From positions 1 to 40,928 of the forward strand of contig JAGGVT010000027.1 in assembly GCA_021157815.1 (NCBI GenBank): a stretch of 40,928 nucleotides of DNA, written 5' to 3'. Position 1 is the stretch's first letter, and each line of letters starts with the position of its first letter. The DNA comes from a bacterium (lineage in GTDB: Bacteria > JAJVIF01 > JAGGVT01). A program made the translations under genes and the position numbers. Under the pieces are notes generated by a model. That model did no database searches, had not been told where the DNA came from, and worked only from the letters and a program-made list of their open reading frames with translations. Below are positions 12,380-19,345 of the stretch, in pieces.

Positions 12380-12451
12380 TTCAGGCTCCTTAAACCAATT
12401 TAATATTTTCGGTCAATGATATTACATATTGGGCGCTAAGTCAGGATAAGA

Positions 12452-12716
12452 AACAAGATTCCGTCATTCCCGCGAAAGGGGCTTGTTGAAAAAGGGATAG
12501 ATTTTAATGTAACCTGGAACGCCTTTATAAAAAAGCATGAATCAATTCTACAACGTTCGCAGGCATTCCGGGGTTCCGCATAGATAGCCACTTCCCCGGC
12601 ATGCCTGATTTACCTTATAGGTAATTGTTGCTTTTGTCCGGGACGGCATGACCGGGTTACGGTATAAATAAGCTTTTTCAACAAGCCCCTTTCGCGGGAA
12701 TGACTGAATCTTGTTC
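12452..12716. repeat. MITE-like nested inverted-repeat element, family B copy 1
   Basis: Terminal arms aacaagattccgtcattcccgcgaaaggggcttgttgaaaaa / tttttcaacaagcccctttcgcgggaatgactgaatcttgtt; internal caggcattccggggttccgca...tgccccggcatgcctg-type arm pair. Confidence 0.88.
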
Positions 12717-12882
12717 ATTAGGTGGATATGCACCATTTTTCCCGGCTAATGGGAAGCAAAGCTAGAATAAAACCAGTTCTAAATATAGGTGTCTGACACC
12801 AACATTAAATGCAAAATGCCACGCTCTTGTTTTATAACAAAAGGTGGCATTATAGTTTTAAGAGAATATGAACTACTTCTGA

Positions 12883-14532
12883 TTACTCAATTATTTCGAC
12901 ATCCAAATCCATTGCAGGCCAGTCAAATTTGCTTTCCTCGCCGTGGCATACATTGCATGTATATGCATCTTTCAGGCTCACACCGTGCGACATCGGCAGA
13001 TAAACCGCTCTTTCACGCCATTTGTCAACCTCTCCCAAGACAGCGCCTGTAACGGGATCAACCGATAGCGGATTGCCATCACCATTAACAGGTTCACGAA
13101 TCACAGCCATTCTATATGGAAACAGCATGCCGTCGCCTTTATCGCCATAGGGATTGCCGTAGATATCCGTCGTGCGATTAAACCATTTGTAAACTACCTT
13201 TGATTTCATTTCCATCGGAACATCTTTATTCGCAATATCCAGGTTGATTTCGATAGGACCGCCGTTGTCAGGTACATGGCATCCCGTGCAAGCCATGAAT
13301 GATGCCATTTTCGTGTAGTCATCATTGATATGGGCATCCCTGTGGCATCTGACACATCCCTGTTCCATATCAGGCGCATCCGCAGCCTGCAGAGATGAGG
13401 ATATCTGGCGTCTGAATATGTGGTCGCGGTCATAATGGCAATCGAAACAACTTAATCCCAAAGCGGCATGGATATCGGTTGCAGGCTCGAAAGCGGTGCC
13501 TCGAAGGTTGCTGTAAACCGGTGAAACTGATAATGCAGGCTTGATTGATGTCAGCGCGAGATGGCATCGCTTGCATGCTTCTGTGGAAGTATGGTTGATG
13601 TTTTCCATTAGCGGAGTCAGAGCGGCAAAGTTCTTGTTGAGCCTTTCAGTATTGGATAGTGAATATCCCTCCGTCACATGGCAGATGAGACAATCGATAT
13701 TACCAAATTCAGATTCCCGGAATATCCTCTCAGAACCCTCGGCTAATGGCTTAAGGCCATAACCGATATGGCATGTTTTACACGCCCCGCTGAATTCAGC
13801 ATCCCACGCATCATCGGCGAGGATTCCCCAAAGGCGTCCCGGACGGTTAATCATGCCGACTTCAGATTCTAATTCGCTTTCAGGATCACCCGACAGATAT
13901 TCGGAATCATAACCGTTGCTCAGTTTATAATGAGTCGTGTTTTGCAGTTCCTCGATTTTGCCCTTATGGCATTCTTCACATGTCCCGGAGCCATCATAGC
14001 TATCAATGAGTTTCGCATGGTCAGGGACATTAGGCAGATGGCATTCTCCGCAGCCAGTAGGCCCGCCCATGTTGTTATGGCAATCAATGCAGCTACGATG
14101 ATACGCGGCTTTCAATCCGGGTATCATCATCATTACGCCCTCATCTGTAATAACATTACGAACATCGGGCGACGCATCCGGGTCGTGGCAGACATCACAC
14201 GCGAAATTCCTGCTCATGCTGTCGAATTTTTCCGACGCGTGGCATGAGTCGCATTTATCAGCCGGAACTATCTGGTCGTTATAGTGCTTTTCGAAATGGT
14301 GATGGCATACCGTGCAGTCCTTTACAATTTGAGCATGATATTTATGCCTGAAAAGAACCTCGCCATATAGATTTCCCAGAACATCGGACGATTTAACCTT
14401 GTTAATTATGATTGTTTTCGGTCCGAATACAGGGTCCAAATTGACATTTTCAGCGCTGGTGACTAAAAATATACCAGCCGTGAATATCAACACAAGAATG
14501 AATATCGCGCTCAGGTGAGCTGTCGTTTTCAT
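12883..14532 (-). CDS. Multiheme c-type cytochrome (13 CXXCH motifs)
   Basis: 549 aa with N-terminal signal/anchor; 13 CXXCH counted (CTVCH, CDSCH, CDVCH, CIDCH, CGECH, CEECH, CKTCH, CLICH, CKRCH, CFDCH, CVRCH, CTGCH, CNVCH). Confidence 0.93.
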   Translation of the reverse strand: MKTTAHLSAIFILVLIFTAGIFLVTSAENVNLDPVFGPKTIIINKVKSSDVLGNLYGEVLFRHKYHAQIVKDCTVCHHHFEKHYNDQIVPADKCDSCHASEKFDSMSRNFACDVCHDPDASPDVRNVITDEGVMMMIPGLKAAYHRSCIDCHNNMGGPTGCGECHLPNVPDHAKLIDSYDGSGTCEECHKGKIEELQNTTHYKLSNGYDSEYLSGDPESELESEVGMINRPGRLWGILADDAWDAEFSGACKTCHIGYGLKPLAEGSERIFRESEFGNIDCLICHVTEGYSLSNTERLNKNFAALTPLMENINHTSTEACKRCHLALTSIKPALSVSPVYSNLRGTAFEPATDIHAALGLSCFDCHYDRDHIFRRQISSSLQAADAPDMEQGCVRCHRDAHINDDYTKMASFMACTGCHVPDNGGPIEINLDIANKDVPMEMKSKVVYKWFNRTTDIYGNPYGDKGDGMLFPYRMAVIREPVNGDGNPLSVDPVTGAVLGEVDKWRERAVYLPMSHGVSLKDAYTCNVCHGEESKFDWPAMDLDVEIIE

Positions 14533-15839
14533 TATTCCGCACCTCCCGCAGTTGATGCAGCCATTTCAGGTTGCGGTTCGGCCTCGGGTTGTGGTTTTAT
14601 ATCGCCGCCTTTTTTCATAATCGGGACGTATATCACGATAAATCTGTAGAACACAATTATTGATGCAATCAATCCGACGGTAAAGAAGAACTCCGCAGTT
14701 GACGGCACATATACGTGTTCAACGCCCGGAGGCCTGTATGCTGTAACCAAAACATTCTGACGATTAGCCGCCATCGAAACCATGGCGAACGTGCTTGCCA
14801 TGAATAACCAGTTTGGAGTTTTTCGCACTTTGGGCAGCATGAACATCAGCAATGCGAGCACAAGCAGTCCGACCTCCAGAAGCCATGCCCATTTCTGAAT
14901 ACTTGGTTCGTAAAGATAAACATTCGCGCCGCGATAGTTTAGATCGTACATCTTTAGAATGAAATATATTCCAAGCAGCCAGGGAGTGTAATTTGCCAGC
15001 TGCGAAAGGATTTTCATTTCAGGTTTCTTTCCGAATGAATATGAATTTATAAGCGATACAAATATCAAAACCGGGAATCCAACAGCAAATGCCGACATAA
15101 GAAACAACAGCGGCAGCATCGGGCTCTGCCATAGTGGATGAAGTTTTTCACCGGCAATCACCATCAGTGTGCCAAGCGATGACTGATGCAGGCATGAGAG
15201 AACGACACCGAGAATCACAAAAAACGCAAGAAGCGGCATTCTGATAATTGGAATGTTGATTTTGAGAAGGATGAAATCCGCTATCCAGAGAAACCACTCA
15301 GTGAGCCTGTTGAACATCGACAATGGCCAGAACCATGCGACTTTCCCTTTATATTTCTCAATGACAAACGGCATAAACTCTATTAACAATACTGTGAGAT
15401 AAAGCATAACGCAGATTGCTACTTCGAACAGCACCGAATTTCCCTGCCACCATCTGGGGAATATCGGATGCCAGAACAGCCAGTATCGCCCCAAGTCGAT
15501 AAGCAGGCTTATAGGGGCAAAAGTATAGCAAAGCAATCCGAAAACAACTCCCTGCCTGCTTAGAGTGCTGTATTTATGATGCCCATATATGTGCGCGATG
15601 AAAGCCATTGTGAATCCGGCAGCTCCGAGCACAATGAAGGTCGCTATATTTATTCCCTTCCAAATACCCCAGGGATAATCGTTGTCTAAATTTGTCACCG
15701 CTGACAGACCGAAGAAAAAGCGTCCGAATGCGACTCCTGCGCAAATCATGATAAGCCCGATTAAAACCCATGTTCCGGGAGTGAAAAACCTGTAGCCTTT
15801 ATCGTACATTCGTTCAACTTGAGGTTCGTGATTTGACAT
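14532..15839 (-). CDS. NrfD/PsrC/HybB-type integral membrane quinol oxidoreductase subunit
   Basis: 435 aa polytopic; WGIWKGINIATFIVLGAAGFTMAFIAHIYG, LLIDLGRYWLFWHPIFPRWW, CLHQSSLGTLMVIA typical of HybB-like subunits; stop overlaps downstream start (TAATG). Confidence 0.9.
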   Translation of the reverse strand: MSNHEPQVERMYDKGYRFFTPGTWVLIGLIMICAGVAFGRFFFGLSAVTNLDNDYPWGIWKGINIATFIVLGAAGFTMAFIAHIYGHHKYSTLSRQGVVFGLLCYTFAPISLLIDLGRYWLFWHPIFPRWWQGNSVLFEVAICVMLYLTVLLIEFMPFVIEKYKGKVAWFWPLSMFNRLTEWFLWIADFILLKINIPIIRMPLLAFFVILGVVLSCLHQSSLGTLMVIAGEKLHPLWQSPMLPLLFLMSAFAVGFPVLIFVSLINSYSFGKKPEMKILSQLANYTPWLLGIYFILKMYDLNYRGANVYLYEPSIQKWAWLLEVGLLVLALLMFMLPKVRKTPNWLFMASTFAMVSMAANRQNVLVTAYRPPGVEHVYVPSTAEFFFTVGLIASIIVFYRFIVIYVPIMKKGGDIKPQPEAEPQPEMAASTAGGAE

Positions 15840-15842
15840 TGC

Positions 15843-16769
15843 CTATTCCTCCTCCCCTTCGTGATTTGATTTATTATCCATTCGACTGCTTCTGAACATC
15901 ATCAGAAACAGGAAAATATACAGCGCAACCGGAGGAATGAAATATTTGAATACGCTGTGCTGGATAGTTTCAGATAACTGCCCGGCTGGAACATCGCTTT
16001 GGACAAGCAATCCCAGTTTCACAGGTGGAACAGGCAGAAGGTACAGCCAGCTTGTGCCGCCGGCAGTATGTTCGCCATATATTTCAGTCTCATAGATATC
16101 CGTATTTTGTTCTATGATTCCATGTCCGAGTTTGAGAAGGTCTCCACGCCTGCCGAAGGTCATTGCCTCCTGTGGGCAAGCCTCCACACATGCCGGAAGT
16201 TTATCCGGTATTCGATGAATACATAACGTGCATTTTTGAATGACCGGAAAAAGAGGCTCATCGAATTCAAAAACGGGTATCTGGAAAGGACATGCAATCA
16301 TGCAGTATCGGCATCCGATACAGGCTGATTCGTCATAAAGGACAGGACCTTCCGGAGTTTTCCTCAACGCGCCTACAATACACGCTGATACACACGCCGG
16401 TTCGTTGCAGTGCATACACTGCTGTTTTAGAAAAACCGGTTTATGGTTCATCCGCGCGTCATCACCATACGGATAAAACCTGTTTATAACTGTGTGCGTG
16501 GTTTCATCGGTTCGACGTTTTTTTGCAAGTACCCGCAAATCCTTGAAGTCTATATCCGGCTTGTCCAGATCATTTGTCATGTTACAGGCGAGTTCGCATA
16601 TACGGCATCCGATGCATTTAGTCGCATCGTAAAGCACAGCATAGTTATTCTCAAACTCAGCCGGGTCGTGACCATGTCCGGAGGCGTGCGCTTCACCGGG
16701 AATCATCGAACCCGCAATTACAGCACCGCCGGTAACGGCGGCATTTTTAAGAAATTTTCGTCTGTCCAT
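15843..16769 (-). CDS. HybA-like 4x[4Fe-4S] ferredoxin subunit, Tat signal, C-terminal TM helix
   Basis: 308 aa; DRRKFLK twin-arginine motif; CIGCRICELAC, CMHCNEPACVSAC, CIGCRYCMIAC, CTLCIHRIPDKLPACVEAC; C-terminal hydrophobic helix YFIPPVALYIFLFLMMF. Confidence 0.92.
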   Translation of the reverse strand: MDRRKFLKNAAVTGGAVIAGSMIPGEAHASGHGHDPAEFENNYAVLYDATKCIGCRICELACNMTNDLDKPDIDFKDLRVLAKKRRTDETTHTVINRFYPYGDDARMNHKPVFLKQQCMHCNEPACVSACIVGALRKTPEGPVLYDESACIGCRYCMIACPFQIPVFEFDEPLFPVIQKCTLCIHRIPDKLPACVEACPQEAMTFGRRGDLLKLGHGIIEQNTDIYETEIYGEHTAGGTSWLYLLPVPPVKLGLLVQSDVPAGQLSETIQHSVFKYFIPPVALYIFLFLMMFRSSRMDNKSNHEGEEE

Positions 16770-16819
16770 TATCTAGTCGCTCTATCCCCCAAAATTGTTT
16801 TTAGAAATAATGTTTTATT

Positions 16820-18079
16820 CTATCTGGACCAGTGGCAGTCAACACATAACATGCTGCTGTCCATGTGATCCTTGTAATCTGTATGACATTCAAGGCAGAT
16901 ACTTCTCTCCCTCGGTGACCAATTATGTTTCACGTGACACGAAACGCATCCTAAATCGGTATGCTGAGGATGCAATCCGCTTTCTATTCCATCATGACAA
17001 TTCGTGCAAGAATCCCAGGATGCCTTCCAGCTGTGCGGCACATGGCACATCAAACAATCCTTCTTGATATCGCTTTGCGAACACGCAGCTGCTTCATCCG
17101 AATGGCACGACGTGCATGAATCCGGGATTATGCTGGAGAAATCGCCCTTTTCGTGGCATGTATTGCAATCCTGATGAAGATTGCTGCCTGATTTCATTAT
17201 GCCTGAAAAATCCTCACCATGGCATAACTCGCAGCTTGAATCTCCAGTGATACCAAAATGATGAGGAGTATGGCACGTCAAGCAGTCAAGACTCTGATGT
17301 CCGCTAATATTATGCGTAGCTACAAGGTTGAGTTCATTTTCCCTGTGGCAGTTTTTGCATGTTATTTCCTCGGATGGGTCCTCGCTTTGGTGAGGAGTGT
17401 GGCAAGTTCCGCAGCTTGATTTTGCGATGTGCGGGTCGGCTAAAGCTGCTCTGAACGAATCAGCATCCAACTCAGCGGATTTATCCTCAAGAATGTGGCA
17501 GGCACCGCATCGGGAAGAGTCATAGGGATAATCTCCCCTGCTTTTTCCCAATATCGACGTTCCCTTGAATCCGTGGCAGATAGTGCAGTGGCCAGATGCC
17601 ATCATCTGCGCGTTGTCTTCAGTTTCCTTATGGCATTCGGAACATTCAATCACATTGGAAAGATTGTGCCCTTCGGTATGGCAGTCGATGCATCGCATGG
17701 GACTGCCGTTCAATTTTGCTCTTTCGCCCAGATGCTGCCAGTGTCCGGGATTTGAATACCTGTCGACTGGATGGCATAACAGGCATCGTCCTTCATTGAT
17801 GGCTACATTTTCGTAGGTGCCATCGAAACCAAGCTCGCGACGTTCAAGGTGGCTATTATTTACAGCATGACATTCAAGGCAGTGAATTTCAGCGTGTGCG
17901 ACAATCTGTGGTTTTTTGAAAATGAGATCTTTTACATGGCATTTCGCGCATTTGTCAGGCGATGTATTCCATTCAGCAAGCGATATAGCGTATGGTCGAG
18001 TGCATCCTGCGTAAAGAACAGAAGTTATTAAAAGGACGCATAAAAACGCAATTGCCCGATGTGTAATCGTTTTTGTCAT
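16820..18079 (-). CDS. Multiheme c-type cytochrome lipoprotein (18 CXXCH motifs)
   Basis: 419 aa; lipobox LYAGC; 18 CXXCH motifs counted by eye from CAKCH to CVDCH. Confidence 0.93.
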   Translation of the reverse strand: MTKTITHRAIAFLCVLLITSVLYAGCTRPYAISLAEWNTSPDKCAKCHVKDLIFKKPQIVAHAEIHCLECHAVNNSHLERRELGFDGTYENVAINEGRCLLCHPVDRYSNPGHWQHLGERAKLNGSPMRCIDCHTEGHNLSNVIECSECHKETEDNAQMMASGHCTICHGFKGTSILGKSRGDYPYDSSRCGACHILEDKSAELDADSFRAALADPHIAKSSCGTCHTPHQSEDPSEEITCKNCHRENELNLVATHNISGHQSLDCLTCHTPHHFGITGDSSCELCHGEDFSGIMKSGSNLHQDCNTCHEKGDFSSIIPDSCTSCHSDEAAACSQSDIKKDCLMCHVPHSWKASWDSCTNCHDGIESGLHPQHTDLGCVSCHVKHNWSPRERSICLECHTDYKDHMDSSMLCVDCHWSR

Positions 18080-18202
18080 AGCACTCGATTAATACCTTAT
18101 ATTAAAGGTATCAGCCATATGGAATGAAATGCAAAAATACAGTGTATATTTTTACCGGTGAAAGTGCAATATAAAAATTTAAGAGATAAATATGCAAATG
18201 AA

Positions 18203-18228
18203 AAAACCCGCTTTCGCGGGTTTGGATC
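18203..18228 (-). terminator. Rho-independent terminator downstream of tetraheme cytochrome gene
   Basis: On - strand: aacccgcgaaagcgggttttttca. Confidence 0.85.
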
Positions 18229-18249
18229 TTTAAATAGATGGATGTGAAT

Positions 18250-18807
18250 TTACTTCTTGTCAGCTTTTTTCTTTCCGTGCTTAATCAAAGCCCATTTCTT
18301 GTCGAAATCGAACGGAACGTATGTTGGTGATTCCTCGTTGTGGCATTTCTTGCATCCTTTGACATCCGGGACAATCAATCCGTTCTTGATACAGGCTTCA
18401 TGATCTCGCATGACGGGCATGGGTTTGTATTTCTCACCGGGACCGTGGCATGCCTCACAGGTAACGCCCTCTTCATATTTGAATTTCTTGCCATGCTGGT
18501 CCTCTTTGCCGTAAGCGGTTACATGGCATTTAAGGCATTTCGGGGATGCCGATGCATCTTCAATACCCATTTCTTTGGCGATTTTCTTTGATTCATCATT
18601 TTTCAAAGTCTCAAAGGCTTTGCTGTGGGGTCCATTAGCATACTTTGTGTATTCAATGCCGCCGATTGAATCCCTTGAATGACATGTTTTACACGCGGTC
18701 AAGCCCTCATATTTGAGTTTTGCTTTCTTCTCCTGAGCTGTTACAAGCGAGGAAAAAACAATCAGAAGCAATCCTGTAATGATTAATAAAGGAAGATATT
18801 TTTTCAT
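18250..18807 (-). CDS. Tetraheme cytochrome c (cytochrome c554-like family)
   Basis: 4 CXXCH (CKTCH, CLKCH, CEACH, CKKCH), signal peptide; start placed at MKKYLPLL with upstream RBS ggag; ORF track extends to 18831. Confidence 0.85.
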   Translation of the reverse strand: MKKYLPLLIITGLLLIVFSSLVTAQEKKAKLKYEGLTACKTCHSRDSIGGIEYTKYANGPHSKAFETLKNDESKKIAKEMGIEDASASPKCLKCHVTAYGKEDQHGKKFKYEEGVTCEACHGPGEKYKPMPVMRDHEACIKNGLIVPDVKGCKKCHNEESPTYVPFDFDKKWALIKHGKKKADKK

Positions 18808-19345
18808 GAAATTACTCCTGCGAATCAACATTAGTAAATATGAATGGAGGAAAGTGCATTACCGCTCAGCTCCACTATTAAAATTATACGCTGGCATTGT
18901 AATAATGCAAGCCTGTCATACTATATCGGAGTGGTTTTAGCATTGTGAAGTTCGGATTTAATAATGGGCTGTTCAGCATCAGCCAGGAAATAATGGCATT
19001 CAACAATTTAGTACATTAGTTATTTTACGCTATACAACTTGATATGGGCTGTCACCACGGCTGTCACCATGGCTGTCACTTTTAGTATCAGATTGGATTG
19101 AATTCTGAATTGACCTATATAAAGTATAACAGATTCGATGTGGGATTGCATTTTGGTGGCTTTATATATTGGCGATATACTAATATACAACTTGATATGG
19201 GCTGCCACCGTGGCTGTCACCGTGGCTGCCACAATATTCCAATATTCAATGTTGCACTATTTCACAACGATAATGCTCAATCGTAAAGTTCAAGATAAAT
19301 CGACACTACACATCTTAATCGAATGTTGTATAATCTCTTTTCGTT

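Follow-up and report, generated by a model that had tools for sequence, protein, structure and literature searches.

A putative menaquinone-linked cytochrome complex with a fused, apparently eroded domain of the octaheme tetrathionate reductase family

The 13-heme cytochrome c13, encoded beside a HybA/HybB-type quinone module in a bacterium from a little-known class, is almost certainly a fusion of a five-heme module of the HmcA/NhcA type and an eight-heme domain of the octaheme tetrathionate reductase (OTR) family. The eight heme motifs of the OTR-family domain are intact and the reactive residues of the canonical active site are gone, suggesting that it is most likely an eroded reductase retained as an electron conduit. 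The gene lies in a row of five on the minus strand (positions 12883 to 18807) of the window, by which we mean the whole 40.9-kb contig (C206; 40,928 nucleotides) of a 3.2-Mb, 91%-complete genome; all genome-wide absences given below are limited by that completeness. The five genes encode 4-heme, 18-heme, HybA-like, HybB/NrfD-like, and 13-heme proteins, with the following features.

18250 to 18807, minus strand: c4, tetraheme cytochrome of the c554 type (4 CXXCH motifs) with a cleavable signal, probably on its own transcript
18204 to 18223, minus strand: intrinsic terminator between c4 and c18 (8-bp stem, T-run)
16820 to 18079, minus strand: c18, 18-heme putative lipoprotein (18 CXXCH in 419 aa), class III/c7-like, with NrfH-like first hemes
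15843 to 16769, minus strand: HybA/HmcB-like Tat-exported 4x[4Fe-4S] protein with a C-terminal transmembrane segment (family models, 16 Cys)
14532 to 15839, minus strand: HybB/HmcC-like quinone-reactive membrane subunit of the NrfD family (PF03916)
12883 to 14532, minus strand: c13, 13-heme fusion protein (13 CXXCH in 549 aa)
14023 to 14442, minus strand: c13 residues 31 to 170, pentaheme module homologous to the HmcA/NhcA C-terminal domain
12886 to 14022, minus strand: c13 residues 171 to 549, octaheme OTR-family domain
13837 to 13839, minus strand: Gly232, replacing OTR Cys64 (residue alignment)
13504 to 13506, minus strand: Leu343 (CTT), replacing OTR Lys153 (residue alignment)
13306 to 13308, minus strand: Met409, replacing OTR His226 (residue alignment)

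Shuffled c4, c18, and c13 sequences contain on average 0.01, 0.30, and 0.05 CXXCH motifs, with a maximum of 3, so that the real counts of 4, 18, and 13 are far beyond chance and exactly those of the original prediction. That prediction treated the five co-oriented genes as a set. Adjacency and strand hold, but c4, which starts at an ATG at 18807 preceded by AGGAG, probably forms a separate transcript because the strong intrinsic terminator lies directly 3' of it (18223 to 18204). The likely operon is therefore the four genes c18-hybA-hybB-c13. Only 3 bases separate hybA from hybB, and the TAA of hybB overlaps the ATG of c13 as TAATG. The flanking genes encode an ABC-2 exporter set, which includes HlyD and MarR proteins, and a formate-tetrahydrofolate ligase; none encodes a redox subunit. 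The locus was examined for hydrogenase, molybdopterin, and porin partners, and all were rejected, none being found; the absence of molybdopterin and NiFe subunits from the locus had been anticipated, and no NiFe hydrogenase was detected in the 91%-complete assembly either. A search of a plasmid collection gave no match. Two repeat elements flank the row: MITE-like 48-nt inverted repeats (94% complementary) around 178 nt just downstream of c13 (12447 to 12720), and a 49-nt direct repeat upstream of c4 (19031 to 19232) with two good copies (90% alike) and internal GTGACAGCCACGGTG-like repeats.

Different families account for the two halves of c13. NCBIfam models assign residues 184 to 422 to the OTR family (TIGR04315, 60 bits) and residues 94 to 165 to the HmcA C terminus (40 bits). 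A profile of c13 and its relatives matches OTR (PDB 1SP3) at 6e-152 and the HmcA C terminus at 2.5e-34, with HmcA/NhcA matches spanning about 1e-34 to 1e-19, and the two matching stretches are separate and adjacent. Each half also exists alone: standalone five-heme proteins equivalent to residues 40 to 165 directly precede HybA-HybB in many Desulfobulbaceae, Desulfuromonadales, and others, and standalone eight-heme proteins equivalent to residues 171 to 546 are found elsewhere. The OTR part carries 5.3 kDa per heme and the N-terminal module 3.1, and c13 contains no CXXCK, the motif of the active-site heme of NrfA/ONR. To the 13 motifs and the coupling to hybB described originally, these results add a division into 5 plus 8 hemes. 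The heme chain could not be traced, because the AlphaFold models of c13 (pLDDT 49, alignment of 29 rows) and c18 (pLDDT 35, no alignment) are poor and their heme geometry is unreadable; Foldseek ranks 1SP3 first for the c13 model, yet at an E value of 0.086 and a TM score of 0.18 to 0.21.

Scanning genome contigs with the c13 sequence alone returned no match; an alignment of the pentaheme module, run against 84,980 genomes, recovered 80 loci. One of these, L065 ("bacterium isolate AUK090"), repeats the HybA-HybB-13-heme order of the window, with identities of 48% for HybA, 46% for HybB, and 33% over full c13. The proposed check by synteny thus bears out the three-gene core, but neither c18 nor c4 is present near HybA in L065, whose contig ends just after c13. 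A pentaheme module with a canonical OTR domain occurs in 12 of the 14 scan loci with HybB more than 38% identical; L065 is the 13th, and L135 encodes a 13-heme protein without OTR. The N-terminal module is present and OTR absent in the 60 scan loci with distant HybB. The HybA-HybB-pentaheme-OTR set recurs in Desulfobacterota, including Desulfatibacillum alkenivorans, with full-strength OTR domains (in L070, from that species, 528 bits against a TIGR04315 cut-off of 375). HybB and the cytochrome half often form one in-frame fusion of about 1090 aa in Desulfobacterota and in two bins classified as Myxococcota. HybB trees place the window inside the clade of loci with HybB more than 38% identical (100/100). 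In the OTR tree the window, L065 (100/98), and the standalone OTR of L044 (100/99) group together and away from the Desulfobacterota fusions, so two origins of the pentaheme-OTR fusion are possible; the window branch in this tree is long and its exact placement unsure.

Active-site residues, given in 1SP3 numbering, were mapped via an alignment of the L053 protein to 1SP3. In window c13, Cys64 is replaced by Gly232, Lys153 by Leu343, and His226 by Met409. All eight heme motifs are intact in OTR order. Among 43 columns conserved at 95% or more in 28 OTR relatives, c13 has lost 8, including these three, and retains all 24 heme residues together with 11 further ones; the D-x-H motif (Asp353, His355) is retained. 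In the surveyed relatives, position 64 is Cys or an in-frame UGA except in L065 (Ser) and L069 (Gly), position 153 is Lys with the sole exception of L069 (Ser), and position 226 is His with the sole exception of L065 (Met). As read from the alignment, the loss is selective, in that the reactive residues are gone but the heme attachment sites and most of the axial histidines remain. With all three residues replaced, including the lysine at 153 and the Cys/Sec at 64, c13 falls outside OTR proper, and its 60 bits lie far from the curated TIGR04315 cut-off of 375.

Lys153 is reportedly the axial ligand of the active-site heme 2 in OTR. Heme II of OTR is catalytic, and the enzyme reduces nitrite, hydroxylamine, and tetrathionate (PMC4484225). 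We initially read c13 as an active OTR and dropped this reading once the residue survey showed Gly, Leu, and Met; the residues suggest that the octaheme domain is rather likely non-catalytic. Loss of Lys153 and Cys64 does not by itself prove loss of catalysis, since heme 2 could take the histidine of its CXXCH as axial ligand, as happens in HAO, and keep an open site. The change of His226 to Met, seen in both L065 and the window, would by ligand counting be compatible with His/Met ligation of a heme. The original description of a module with "no catalytic subunit" thus needs qualification: half of c13 is an OTR-family reductase domain, intact in syntenic relatives, and the statement survives as "no obvious catalytic site" because the active-site residues are lost in the window.

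The HybA-like protein has the 16 cysteines, Tat signal (TIGR01409), and C-terminal hydrophobic segment expected from the original prediction. It scores 322 bits with the HmcB model (cut-off 420) and 250 bits with the HybA model; the HybB-like protein, a PF03916 match as foreseen, scores 199 bits with the HmcC model (cut-off 550) and is encoded by the only NrfD-family gene in the assembly. The suggested model search thus returned HmcB- and HmcC-like matches, but below the Hmc cut-offs. Mutating Arg89, Tyr99, Glu148, or His184 impairs E. coli HybB (PMC8076601), and all four are kept in the window (Arg95, Tyr105, Glu154, and His218). The genome also contains a futalosine-pathway menaquinone gene (PF02621, MqnA-type). 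These features agree with a quinone-linked Fe-S/NrfD module that is connected to multiheme cytochromes, and the locus is very probably a menaquinone-linked conduit.

The heme counts of 4, 18, and 13 match no named complex, as had been supposed, and by the tests made the locus is not a member of OTR, Hmc, hydrogenase-2, or MtrCAB. The C-terminal half of c13 aligns with Shewanella oneidensis OTR across all eight heme motifs, but OTR is a free periplasmic protein, whereas c13 is fused to a pentaheme module and linked to HybAB. Hmc of Desulfovibrio shares HmcB- and HmcC-like subunits, and the N-terminal module of c13 and the C-terminal heme domain of HmcA are homologs; however, Hmc has a 16-heme HmcA and a cytoplasmic HmcF-type partner, and neither is encoded in the operon. 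Nhc and Ohc (nine- or eight-heme cytochrome, Fe-S protein, NrfD) have the same layout, and NhcA (1DUW) is homologous to the N-terminal module, but they differ from the locus in heme number and lack an attached OTR-derived domain. In MccACD and NrfABCD, quinol:sulfite and quinol:nitrite reductases, an octaheme or pentaheme enzyme is fed by Fe-S and NrfD proteins. This is the layout of the intact relatives L066 to L078, in which, however, the domain is of the OTR rather than the MccA/NrfA type and is fused to the electron-input module; in the window its site is eroded. QrcABCD shares a 10-TM quinone module of the HybB/QrcD group and a cytochrome subunit, but that cytochrome has 6 hemes rather than 13, and no Mo-type QrcB is encoded at the locus. 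The NiFe large subunit of hydrogenase-2 (HybOCAB) is likewise absent from the locus.

The original count and length of c18 (18 CXXCH, about 419 aa) are exact, and c18 is likely a lipoprotein, as predicted, though its lipobox (LYAG|C) is non-canonical, with Tyr at -3. Its 2.4 kDa per heme place it in the electron-transfer class, defined by less than 5 kDa per heme (PMC7096707). In genome G305 (L160), the gene for a 23-heme relative of c18 overlaps one for a HybB-like protein; in genome G146, a c4 relative (L164, 8305 to 8871; 34%) lies near a HybAB fusion. These neighbors support, without proving, membership of c18 and c4 in the predicted complex. Beside the same HybAB fusion, L164 (1205 to 6048) encodes 11-heme and 19-heme cytochromes with several transmembrane segments, one with a cytochrome b561 domain. 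Elsewhere in the window's own genome, contig C37 (L150, 4204 to 8010) encodes a Tat-exported FDH-N alpha subunit with an in-frame UGA (selenocysteine) and an Fe-S beta subunit. No gamma subunit gene lies beside them, and the best cytochrome b candidate is unconvincing at 17 bits. Contig C61 (L041, 5550 to 6911) encodes an HAO-family octaheme cytochrome (best PDB match 4QO5 at 2.6e-40), possibly a terminal reductase, and contig C128 (L043, 4578 to 6815) a 745-aa, 20-heme protein with an N-terminal NapC/NirT-like anchor. The gamma-less formate dehydrogenase and the HAO-family octaheme are likely candidate partners of the complex.

We propose that c18, HybA, HybB, and c13 probably form a menaquinone-linked membrane complex in which the octaheme domain extends the wire. 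HybB would bind (mena)quinone close to the periplasmic side of the membrane. It is probably electrogenic: this property has been demonstrated for QrcD and proposed for both HybB and HmcC. The four [4Fe-4S] clusters of HybA would exchange electrons with the pentaheme module at the N terminus of c13. The OTR-derived domain would most likely be an eight-heme extension of the wire, because its eight hemes are kept but the canonical active site is lost. From there, c18 and perhaps c4 would pass electrons between c13 and periplasmic partners such as the formate dehydrogenase (electrons to quinone, as in Qrc) or the HAO-family octaheme (electrons from quinol). Alternatively, the complex might oxidize menaquinol in the manner of Nrf or Mcc, with the c13 octaheme as terminal reductase of a nitrogen or sulfur compound and heme 2 ligated by its own CXXCH histidine. 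The shared polypeptide with an electron-input module, the intact sites of relatives with the same architecture, the retained D-x-H motif, and the known OTR substrates favor such activity, but the replacement of Lys153, Cys64, and His226, the low TIGR04315 score, and the long branch make it unlikely.

Wire extension is compatible with either direction of flow, and flow towards quinone has somewhat less than an even chance. A possible course, falling short of probable, is a Qrc-like cytochrome:menaquinone reductase that takes electrons from periplasmic formate, or from outside, via c18/c4 and c13 to HybAB and menaquinone. The exported formate dehydrogenase without a convincing gamma subunit points this way, as does the assignment of Nhc and Ohc to the same direction. 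QrcD is electrogenic, and it has been classed together with HybB and HmcC as a quinone reductase (PMC6303296). Against it, an origin from a reductase fusion argues for quinol oxidation by the relatives, FdhB has a transmembrane helix, and a gamma subunit may sit in the missing 9% of the genome. More tentatively, a reductase once fused to a quinone-linked input module may have lost its active site and become a wire, the complex now running in reverse as a Qrc analogue. A conduit ending in an outer-membrane porin-cytochrome complex, raised in the original prediction, would suit the probable lipoprotein c18 with its very dense hemes and the anchored 20-heme protein; it is improbable, as no MtrB/PioB porin (PF11854) was found in the 91%-complete genome, multiheme loci are few in it, and no MtrC-type cytochrome is encoded at the locus.

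In Shewanella, electrons reach OTR via CymA and a soluble tetraheme cytochrome; the fusions described here would give OTR-type enzymes a dedicated quinone connection by covalent attachment. None of the papers searched describes HybAB fused to OTR. The HybA-HybB-pentaheme-OTR family, some of whose members probably contain selenocysteine, would, in sulfate reducers, form a previously undescribed class of quinol-linked octaheme reductases. Within its single architecture, active sites range naturally from intact (Cys or Sec, Lys) to eroded, which makes it possible to test at what point a multiheme reductase turns into a simple conductor.

Both Cys64 (now Gly) and Lys153 (now Ser) have been lost a second time, independently, in a HybB-OTR fusion (L069, 3586 to 6924). 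Five OTR-family proteins, including four HybAB-linked pentaheme-OTR fusions, have an in-frame UGA exactly at the position of OTR Cys64: L075 (9815 to 11881), L076 (4181 to 6280), L077 (2538 to 4520), L078 (2 to 2227), and L049 (minus strand). Splitting L075 to L078 into five-heme and seven-heme genes was rejected, as each is a single gene with the UGA inside. These proteins are probable selenocysteine octaheme reductases; one Sec-containing TIGR04315 protein has been listed (PMC13188914).
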